Assembly (NCBI RefSeq): GCF_022760755.1 | Contig: NZ_JAIVFP010000001.1 | Span: 3,390,001 to 3,454,000 of the forward strand | DNA length: 64,000 bases | From: Candidatus Rhodoblastus alkanivorans | GTDB taxonomy: Bacteria > Pseudomonadota > Alphaproteobacteria > Rhizobiales > Beijerinckiaceae | Direction of reading: 5' to 3' | Part shown: one piece after another, positions 4,354-27,883 of the stretch | Layout: each line of letters starts with the position of its first letter | How positions within the stretch are numbered: the stretch's first letter is position 1 | Notes under the pieces: model-generated | What the model was told of the DNA's origin: nothing | What the model saw: the letters and a program-made list of their open reading frames with translations, nothing else | The model's database searches: none | Position numbers and translations under genes: made by a program

Positions 4354-8562
<4,209 letters not shown>

Positions 8563-24377: not shown

Positions 24378-24421
24378 TCCGGCCGCAGCCGCGTCGGGTC
24401 AAATCTCGTCTGAAGATAAAA

Positions 24422-24467
24422 TGGCAGGAGTGGCCGGGCTCGAACCGACCACACCCGGTTTTGGAGA
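24422..24467. repeat. Left attachment-type repeat: 3' part of tRNA-Trp
   Basis: 46 bases match 27808-27853, the 3' part of tRNA-Trp from its anticodon loop to CCA, with one mismatch (24450 versus 27836). The two are in the same orientation and bracket the accessory block, as expected for attL/attR left by a tyrosine integrase using a tRNA gene. Confidence 0.9.
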
Positions 24468-24571
24468 TCAATCATGCCGACGTTCCGCCCGACCTGTCCG
24501 ACGACGAGATCGAGGAACAGGCGAAACGCGCCGAGCGGGAAGCGAAGGCCTCGCTCGAAAAGGAACGGTAA
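24468..24571 (+). pseudogene. C-terminal coding remnant next to attL
   Basis: Directly inside the left repeat, a frame reads DVPPDLSDDEIEEQAKRAER and on to SLEKER before a TAA ending at 24571. This strongly charged helical tail with host-like codons looks like the end of a real protein whose start is missing. A good terminator follows at 24677. Alternatively it could be a tiny gene. Family unknown. Confidence 0.35.
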
Positions 24572-24676
24572 GCGCCGCCGTCACGCAGTCCGAGGCGTCT
24601 TCAGTTTGACACATGCGTCGGCTATGGTGACGACAATTCCAAGGCGCGCTCGGATGTACAGCCGCCGAGGATCCGG

Positions 24677-24708
24677 CCCCGCACGGTGAAAACCGAGGCG
24701 GGGTTTTT
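24677..24708 (+). terminator. Rho-independent terminator inside the island
   Basis: CCCCGC-(15 nt)-GCGGGG followed by TTTTTCTTTT on the plus strand. It would end a plus-strand transcript entering the island, such as that of the gene fragment ending at 24571. Between here and 24858 nothing further is recognised. Confidence 0.8.
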
Positions 24709-24858
24709 CTTTTCCTGCTGGCGGAATTGGATCGTCGCGCCGCCCGCTGTGCTCTTGCCGCGCGCGGGTAACGCTAATTAAGTCCCGCTCTTGGAAAATT
24801 GGCAATTTGGTATATCGTAAGGTCAATTCAGCCTACTTGCTGGCTGAACGACCGCATG

Positions 24859-24889
24859 AACGCCCGCCACGGATGCACTGGCGGGCGTT
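24859..24889. repeat. Palindromic element, copy 2
   Basis: AACGCCCGCCA-CGGATGCAC-TGGCGGGCGTT is a perfect 11-bp stem with a 9-base loop. It is almost identical to the copy at 3670-3700. It lies 38 bases past the CYTH stop on the minus strand and could terminate that gene. Confidence 0.55.
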
Positions 24890-25452
24890 TAATAAGTAAT
24901 TGGCAAGAATTTCCTGGCCAGACCGTCTTACATTTCCGCGGAAATCCCCTCCTGATCGCCATTCAATAGTTCTGCAACGCTCAAGGGACGCCCAGCTTCG
25001 CGACAAAGGCGACCAATAGCCCTTTTGTGGAAACGCTCGTTGTGCGTGACTTCCTGCCCGATCCATTTGGGCAATTCAAAAACTTGATCGATGTGCTGAA
25101 GTTCGAATTCCGCCAGGACGATCCCGGAAAGCTGCCCACTGTAAACGTCAACAAGCCAAATGTTTCCGGCATGTCTGACCTTGTGTCGGGTCTTCACAAA
25201 AATGGCCTTGCCGCAGATGCGTTTAAGCATCTCCTCCGCGTCGGATGGTGGGATTTCATATTCGAACTCCAAACGGCTTGGGCCGGAGCGGTCACTCTTG
25301 ACGGTCAGCCAAGCCTTTCCCCGCGCGATGCGCACGCGCACCTTTGCGCCGTTGCCTTCGCTAATCGTACAGTCTCGGATCACCTCGCTATCTGAAATAG
25401 CCCCGTAAGTCGCCGGACAGGCACTCCCACTTCGCTAAGAGGTAGGAGTAAT

Positions 25453-25866
25453 GTGGTGTTTATGACTGGTGACAATCCGAAGAGTGAGGTCCTGCCGGGC
25501 CGAGAACGACGGCGTCGGCGCACGTCGGCGGAGAAATTGGCGATCATTGCCGAGACGATGGAGCCGGGCATGACGGTTAGCCTTGTCGCGCGCCGTCACG
25601 GCATCGCCCCCAATCAGCTGTTCACCTGGCGGCGGCTGGCGAACCAAGGCGCCCTGACCGCGACGCAGGCCGAGGAGGACGTCGTTCCGGCGTCCGCCTA
25701 CAGGGCTTTGGTCGACCAGGTGCGCGAACTGCAGCGCCTGCTCGGCAAGAAGTCGATGGAGGCCGAAATCCTCAAAGAGGCGCTTGAAGTCGCCGTAGGC
25801 TCAAAAAAACGGATGTTGCGGTCGTTGTCGCTGCCGACGCTCAATCCACGGGACGGTTCGCGATGA
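25453..25866 (+). CDS. IS2-group transposase OrfA
   Basis: A 137-residue protein starting GTG or ATG near 25453-25461. The N-terminal helix-turn-helix reads [20 protein letters not shown] and [18 protein letters not shown] leucine-zipper-like helix follows ([17 protein letters not shown]). It binds the terminal repeats. At codons 117-118 lies a run of seven A (25803-25809), placed as A_AAA_AAA in this frame. That is a -1 slippage signal for making the OrfAB fusion transposase. Confidence 0.9.
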
Positions 25867-26720
25867 AGGCCGTCTGCGAAACCCTCGGCGTCGCCCGCTC
25901 GAATGTCGCCGCGCGCATTGCCGGCGGCGCGGCCAAACGCATGGGCCGACCGCCCCTGCCGGAAGACGATCTGCTCTGCGAGATCAAGGGGATCATCGCC
26001 GAACAGCCGTCCTGGGGCTACGCCCGCGTGTGGGCCGACCTGCGCCGCAAAAGACGCGCCGAGGGCGCGGCGCCGGTCAACCGCAAGCGGGTTTATCGGG
26101 TGATGAGGGCGCACGGCCTGTTGCTTCAACGTCATGCCGGCGGCGGCGAAAACCGCCGGCATGACGGCAAGATCGCCGTTCTGCGCTCCAACCTGCGTTG
26201 GTGTTCCGACGGCTTCGAGATCGCTTGCGACAATGCCGAAAAAGTCCGCGTCGCCTTCGCGCTTGATTGCTGCGACCGGGAAGCCCTCGGCCATGTCGCC
26301 ACGACGGCGGGCGTCAAGGGCGAGGACATCCGCGACCTGATGGTCAGCGCCGTCGAATATCGCTTTGGCCCGGTCAATCGCCTGCCCAGCCCGATCGAAT
26401 GGCTGACCGACAACGGGTCTTGCTACATCGCTGGCGACACGAAACATTTTGCCCGCGAAATCGGCCTTGAGCCGCTGACCACGCCGGTCGAAAGCCCCCA
26501 ATCGAATGGAATGGCCGAAGCCTTCGTCCGCACGATCAAACGCGATTACGCGCGCGTGTCGCCACTGCCGGACGCCGAAACCGTGATCCGCTTGCTGCCG
26601 TCGTGGTTCGAGCATTACAACACACGCCATCCGCATCGCGCGCTTGGCTATCGTTCACCCCGCGAGTTCATCGCGGATCGCTTGGCCGCCGAAGCCGGAG
26701 AGTGTCTGTCCGAAACTTAA
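25863..26720 (+). CDS. IS2-group transposase OrfB (catalytic)
   Basis: A 285-residue protein from the ATG at 25863. The frame is open back to the A7 run, so it is normally made as an OrfAB fusion by -1 frameshift. Contains the IS3-type region ([26 protein letters not shown]) and the rve-type DDE domain. The first Asp is near [12 protein letters not shown], the second in [11 protein letters not shown], and the Glu in [19 protein letters not shown]. It ends with [19 protein letters not shown]. Complete and apparently functional. Confidence 0.93.
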
Positions 26721-26906
26721 GGGGCTACAACACTATCGATGACGGAAGCGCGCCAACCATCCCCAATGACAAGGAATTTGCGCTCGATCTCAAGAGACAT
26801 CGCAAATTCCTTTCATTCTGGTCGCTGAGAAGGATCAGGGCGGCGAGGAAGACGCCGTCGACGACCGTCTTTTACCAGTCAGAATCCCGTAAAGCGAGTC
26901 GAGCCG

Positions 26907-27041
26907 TTAACGAGCGGTAAAGACCGGCTCGCTCACATCCTCCCCATCCCTGGCGCGCGGTAGCCGCTCCGACAGGTCCATCACTGCCCGCAGATGCGCG
27001 ACTCCCTCGCGCTTGGCGGGCGCCCCCTGCCATTTTTCGAC
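26907..27041 (-). pseudogene. Decayed coding stretch in the island
   Basis: A minus-strand frame of about 44 codons (VEKWQGAPAKREG, VMDLSERLPRARDGED, SEPVFTAR, stop) has protein-like composition but no start and no matching upstream frame. Bases 26937-26990 also align with 3703-3757, inside the zinc-ribbon gene near tRNA-Cys, with roughly three of four bases identical. Probably a remnant of an accessory gene. From 27041 to 27256 only AT-rich non-coding sequence is seen. Confidence 0.3.
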
Positions 27042-27256
27042 AGAAGCTCACGAAGAGCGGACGCATCGAGCACCCGGCTTGCTGATCAAATGTTAAGCCC
27101 AGCCTGTCCACGTCCCGGGGTTCACCCCACTCTTGGGTCAGTTCTCACTGGAACTCAACAGGCATGTTGAAAACAGTCATCCGCATCTTGCTTAACATCC
27201 AATTTATCTATTACAATATAATCACAGTAAACGCCTGACATCAAGGCAGATTTAAA

Positions 27257-27601
27257 TTGAAAAATAAGCTCAATTTTGAATCAATGTCTCTTGAGCAACT
27301 CTGGGCGCTTCACGTCGAAGTGAGCACCATCTTATCGGCGCGAATATTGGAACAAAAATCCGAACTCGAGAGGCGTCTCGCGATCGTCAGCGGGAGCGCG
27401 GACATAGCTGGCGACGCCGGTTTGGCGCGTTCCGCATCGCAGGCGAAACCGCGTCGCAAATACCCAAAGGTGTCCCCCCAGTACCGCAACCCGGAGACGT
27501 TCGAGACATGGTCTGGGCGCGGGAAGCGGCCGCGCTGGCTCGTGCGCGCCATAGCGTCTGGCCAAGACATGGACGATTTTCGCATCAAAGACCCGGATTA
27601 A
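27257..27601 (+). CDS. H-NS-family nucleoid protein
   Basis: 114 residues from a TTG at 27257, chosen because NFESMSLEQLWALHVEVSTI matches the family's N-terminal oligomerisation helix from its beginning; an ATG at 27284 is the alternative. A coiled coil (EQKSELERRLA) and a linker lead to the DNA-binding C-terminus KYPKVSPQYRNPETFETWSG with GRGKRPRWL, the AT-hook-like RGKRP loop. Such proteins (HvrA/H-NS type) silence AT-rich foreign DNA. It sits in the tRNA-Trp island directly beside attR, with an AT-rich promoter. Confidence 0.88.
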   Translation: MKNKLNFESMSLEQLWALHVEVSTILSARILEQKSELERRLAIVSGSADIAGDAGLARSASQAKPRRKYPKVSPQYRNPETFETWSGRGKRPRWLVRAIASGQDMDDFRIKDPD

Positions 27602-27807
27602 CGTGCGCCGGGCTTAAGAAGGCGCGCGAAACCGCCGCCGTTCGGCGTCACCCGACCGGCCAAGAATGGCGAAAAGGCGACGACGGAGAATCAGGGATAG
27701 AGAAAAATCGGCCGGAATTTTGCGCGCTACCCGGCTCTTCTTGTTACCCGATTGATTACCCTGGAAAAACAGCGCTTCGAGACTTAGGTTCCAAGTCTTT
27801 GATTTAT

Positions 27808-27883
27808 TGGCAGGAGTGGCCGGGCTCGAACCGACGACACCCGGTTTTGGAGACCGGTGCTCTACCAACTGAGCTACACTCCT
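27808..27883 (-). tRNA. trnW: tRNA-Trp (CCA)
   Basis: The minus strand folds as a full cloverleaf. Acceptor AGGAGTG pairs with CACTCCT, the D stem is GCTC/GAGC, and the anticodon stem CCGGT/ACCGG has loop CTCCAAA (anticodon CCA). The discriminator is G and CCA is encoded. Its 3' 46 bases are repeated at 24422-24467. In many bacteria this gene lies between tuf and secE; that relative order is kept here. Confidence 0.96.

Follow-up and report, generated by a model that had tools for sequence, protein, structure and literature searches.

IS2 elements produce 5-bp repeats at their target and transpose by a copy-out-paste-in route (PMC6350997), and IS copies without target duplications have also been described (PMC11708052). 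Among the CYTH proteins, a Tyr-28/Lys-52 pair was proposed as the catalytic dyad of NeuTTM, the NE1496 protein of N. europaea (PMC3440374). In this family, glutamates of the N-terminal strand serve as ligands of the catalytic metals, and AtTTM3 and ygiF proteins in which they are mutated have strongly lowered activity (PMC4641920). Here, we describe a locus of Candidatus Rhodoblastus alkanivorans in which an element of the first kind lies inside a gene of the second. The window, i.e., the whole stretch of DNA analysed, comprises 64,000 nucleotides, and all coordinates are window positions unless a genome and contig are given. In our view, an active IS2-group element that has multiplied in this chromosome inserted into the CYTH gene and knocked it out, a reading to which we assign a probability of about 0.96.

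The element and the frame that it interrupts

The features of the insertion site are the following.

25393..26732, plus strand: IS3-family, IS2-group insertion sequence of 1,340 bp, with imperfect inverted ends TGAAATAGCCCC...GGGGCTACAACA
25453..25866, plus strand: OrfA of the IS, HTH_Tnp_1 (Pfam PF01527, E = 5e-19)
25863..26720, plus strand: OrfB of the IS, DDE transposase (Pfam rve, E = 1e-14)
25803..25809, plus strand: A7 run, candidate -1 slippage site, from which the -1 frame is open into OrfB (frame reading)
25388..25392, no strand: left copy of the CTATC target duplication
26733..26737, no strand: right copy of the CTATC target duplication
24928..25392, minus strand: C-terminal part of the CYTH gene to the stop codon, including one CTATC, placed by Pfam CYTH, the joined frame and a PDB match
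26733..26800, minus strand: 5' part of the CYTH gene, encoding the N-terminus with its EIERK metal/substrate strand; ATG at 26800, MSLEIERKFLVIGDGWRASVID

The terminal inverted repeats of the element are imperfect and begin with TG (TGAAATAGCCCCGTAAGT and TGTTGTAGCCCCTTAAGT, the second read inward from the other end). The best NCBIfam match of OrfA is the IS2 repressor TnpA, at an E-value of 6e-38 that is under the model's own cut-off, and that of OrfB is IS2 TnpB (E = 3e-89), likewise under the strict cut-off of that model; OrfB is above the cut-off of the general IS3-family model. Together with the helix-turn-helix domain of OrfA, the rve domain of OrfB and the 5-bp duplication, these matches uphold the assignment to the IS2 group made in the preliminary description. 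Since the -1 frame of OrfB is open back to the A7 run, an OrfAB fusion protein may be formed, and a -1 frameshift at this run is a possible route to it, as judged from the reading frames. A frameshift-stimulating RNA structure was sought downstream of the A7 run and gave no signal (fold z about 0).

The boundaries of the element are exact to the base, with CTATC on both sides. Eight other full copies in this genome have the same two end bases, each with a 5-bp duplication of its own (CCAAA, CATGG, CCGCG, CATAT, CTCAG, CCTTC, GTTTC and ACGTT), which shows that the boundaries here are not due to chance. A chance repeat as the origin of the two CTATC copies is ruled out on the same grounds.

The interrupted gene runs on the minus strand from 26800 to 24928. 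When the flanks were joined by script with a single CTATC, a frame of 528 bases was obtained, corresponding to 175 codons plus stop, which begins MSLEIERKF and reads WRASVID-SEVIRDC across the join, placing the insertion near residue 22. The 175-residue protein expected from removal of the IS and one CTATC, with its EIERKF motif, is thus recovered. The restored frame is undamaged and its tunnel residues are intact, in agreement with the earlier view that the gene carries no further damage. At present, the N-terminal piece meets a stop codon inside the IS, and an open frame of 168 aa crosses from the end of the IS to the C-terminal part.

The C-terminal 151 aa alone match Pfam CYTH with E = 3.8e-7 and 30.6 bits, against a curated cut-off of 23.2. 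In the PDB, the 175-aa frame finds NE1496, the CYTH protein of N. europaea (3typ/2fbl), with an E-value of about 3e-11 over residues 3-148. The N-terminal strand of ExExK type is present as EIERK in the uninterrupted frame, and E4, E6, R7, K8, R40, R42, K53, E63, E65, K88, R90, D103, E116 and E118 are conserved with NeuTTM and five relatives from the genus. The short CYTH protein may be an inorganic tripolyphosphatase-like hydrolase.

Copies of the element and the age of the insertion

The chromosome holds 14 full-length copies of the element that are 100% identical across 1,340 bp, the present one included, and several interrupted or partial ones besides. This is the copy count that the preliminary description had called for. 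A 5-bp duplication flanks nine of the 14, this copy among them. The element is absent from the 10 other genomes of the genus, where only chance-like matches of 33-43 bp were found. Set against its closest relative, a fragment in genome G005, the CYTH gene has a dN of 0.155 and a dS of 0.82 (dN/dS about 0.19; 85 codons, both genes being broken today), indicating that the gene was under purifying selection until recently, before the break. An undamaged frame, this low ratio, the identity of the copies and the absence of the IS from sister species all support the recent insertion proposed earlier, bearing in mind that gene conversion among IS copies could maintain their identity, in which case the burst would be older than it seems.

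Other copies show a variety of flanks. L010 and L011, at two loci far apart, have the flank TTCAT in common, a pattern that recombination between copies or another IS-linked rearrangement would produce. One full copy (L014, G000:C1:178511-179850, in this genome) has an 18-bp direct repeat, GATTCCGAGAGGAATCGC, on its two sides in place of a 5-bp one, and another (L005, G000:C1:2313734-2315073) has a second copy of its first 24 bp directly before it, with the CCGCG duplication outside both. Two further copies (L015, L016 and L020; G000:C1:2154155-2156430 and 3081493-3083590) are each broken near IS position 43-49 by a stretch of other DNA of about 930 bp, with a 7-bp overlap of IS sequence; the interruptions look like another IS that used one site twice.

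The insertion into the CYTH gene is an ordinary, routine event and one among several by the same element. The element has struck four or more further genes or gene regions, the flanks of these copies having been read separately and not joined. Halves of an Acyl_transf_3 protein lie on either side of one copy (L009), the match of one half being below the Pfam curated cut-off, and halves of an Exo_endo_phos nuclease on either side of another (L012). A third copy is found in or after a frame with an AAA-type ATPase domain (L003), and a fourth after an OmpW-like N-terminus (L013), both domain matches being below the curated cut-off.

We thus propose the following course of events. An IS3-family element of the IS2 group, new to this lineage within the genus, would have multiplied in the chromosome by means of its OrfAB transposase, presumably by copy-out-paste-in with OrfAB made through the -1 frameshift. 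One copy would then have been pasted into CTATC in a short accessory CYTH gene, at about codon 22, duplicating 5 bp. The first 22 codons, which include EIERK as the strand for metal and triphosphate binding, would thereby have been cut off from the remainder. As neither fragment should be able to form the tunnel active site, the result would be a fresh gene knock-out, probably with loss of the enzyme activity.

The accessory CYTH gene and the consequence of its interruption

The surroundings of the gene include four further features.

27808..27883, minus strand: intact tRNA-Trp(CCA)
24415..24467, plus strand: partial, att-like copy of the 3' half of tRNA-Trp, 45/46 bases matching the tRNA
27257..27601, plus strand: gene for a small H-NS-like protein (Pfam Histone_HNS, E = 4e-15), between the CYTH gene and tRNA-Trp
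24859..24890, no strand: dispersed hairpin AACGCCCGCCA-CGGATGNAC-TGGCGGGCGTTT, just past the CYTH stop codon

The short CYTH gene is accessory. Matches to it occur in five of the 11 genomes of the genus and, across the family, in 53 of 298 genomes from 18 of 43 genera, and relatives are found on 89 plasmid records as well as in viral-contig collections. In sister species, the gene is either 46-52% identical or truncated. A close uninterrupted orthologue was sought, and the best identities were 38-53% among genome contigs, 28-45% among viral contigs and 55% in the family sample (G187). The closest relative (about 75% identity; L103 / G005:C198, about 6411-7600) lies near tRNA-Cys and starts only at residue 89, adjoining an IS5-like transposase gene (family named by eye from sequence); no N-terminal half was seen in the sequence that was read. 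Different mobile elements, IS2-type here and IS5-like in G005, might be inactivating this CYTH family repeatedly near tRNA loci of the genus, a conjecture that we regard as quite improbable. If true, either selection would be acting against a triphosphate-metabolising gene of recent acquisition, or there would be a hot spot for IS elements.

The interval between the tRNA and its partial copy (24468-27807) holds the CYTH gene, the IS and the H-NS-like gene. The segments 24415-24467 and 27801-27853 are 92% identical over 53 nt, so that the 3' end of the tRNA is duplicated at the far side of the interval as a copy of 46-53 bp, 3.4 kb from the intact tRNA. The Rfam matches comprise two tRNAs only, and no integrase gene was recognised among the ORFs in 24415-27808. 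In genome G009, a similar partial tRNA-Trp copy is found next to a probable tyrosine recombinase gene, which suggests that the tRNA-Trp end may serve as an attachment site in the genus. For the comparison of the locus the tRNA-Trp itself was used as anchor, the sister drafts breaking at tuf repeats. Genome G006 is without the CYTH gene, the IS and the second repeat, yet it has the same 155 bp just 3' of tRNA-Trp. We consider the tRNA-bounded interval as a genomic islet to be a lead.

Small repeats are found close to the gene. The hairpin is present in four copies in this genome (24859-24890, 3670-3701, G000:C1:2785116 and 2838103) and in up to seven per genome in the genus, and it stands just past the CYTH stop codon both here and at the truncated G005 relative. 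A second element of about 120 bp (24594-24712), with a terminator-like GC stem and a T run at its end, is single here and reaches four copies per genome in sister species. As a dispersed element, it was ruled out as an ancestral flank of the insertion.

The preliminary description had concluded that the cell lost a triphosphatase-like function. One part of this holds: the genome's only short CYTH gene is the interrupted one, and its larger fragment is without EIERK. The wider claim is less secure, since an intact protein of CYTH-CHAD type (559 aa, C1:1096781) remains, and the NeuTTM-type dyad is incomplete in this gene and its genus relatives, in which the lysine (K53 here) is present but the tyrosine is absent. 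As Tyr-28 is not conserved, a NeuTTM-like substrate stays putative. The loss should be read as that of one short CYTH protein with a putative triphosphate substrate.

The most probable alternative is that the interval was accessory and the gene within it dispensable even before the IS struck, so that nothing of consequence was lost. It concerns the consequence and not the event, and is compatible with the knock-out reading. The patchy distribution and plasmid-borne relatives described above, the position between tRNA-Trp and its partial copy and the likewise truncated closest relative agree with it, as does a base composition (GC 54%, GC3 62%) below that of intact genus relatives (60-66% and 73-84%). 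So does E. coli, where a ygiF knock-out caused no measurable change in the total triphosphatase activity of extracts (PMC3440374). However, the IS is the sole damage to the frame, the tunnel residue set is complete and dN/dS is well below 1. On balance, we give this alternative somewhat less than even odds.

A mixed culture, in which only part of the sequenced population carries the insertion and the species retains the function, would suit a very young event; the assembly has only the occupied site, though, with no empty-site copy elsewhere in the genome, and we consider it unlikely. It is hardly credible that the truncated C-terminal frame of 151-168 codons is still expressed and functional, as the open frame from the IS end might allow, because it has lost the N-terminal 20-odd residues, E4, E6 and K8 among them, and with these the strand glutamates of the kind on which AtTTM3 and ygiF depend (PMC4641920).

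Comparison with described systems

Apart from a better annotation, in which it accounts for two broken gene pieces, the knock-out by the IS2-group element has little significance. It is part of a young IS2-group expansion, with 14 identical copies, by which one genome is being reshaped and other genes are struck, and the IS positions would offer a clean marker for distinguishing strains of the species. As a caution, this genome should not be scored as having the short CYTH enzyme.

The remaining CYTH-CHAD protein shares with the short one a CYTH domain and a presumed triphosphate chemistry, but differs in its length, in a further domain at its C-terminus (named CHAD by eye and not from a profile) and in being uninterrupted; among long CYTH proteins, it can be compared with ygiF of E. 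coli. With NeuTTM, the short protein shares a single CYTH domain, a similar length, the EIERKF start, the basic and acidic tunnel residues and the Lys-52 equivalent at 32% identity, whereas it is set apart by the missing Tyr-28, a C-terminal extension of about 25 residues and the interruption of its gene.

The element itself has in common with IS2 and IS1312 an OrfA with a helix-turn-helix domain, an OrfB DDE transposase in the -1 frame, the 5-bp duplication, a length of about 1.3 kb and TG...CA ends, and its OrfB is 66-74% identical to alphaproteobacterial IS3-family transposases (68% for IS1312). At the DNA level it is distinct from both, its closest relative in the plasmid collection, from Bosea, being 75% identical, with none closer found there, and by this distance it would probably receive an IS name of its own.
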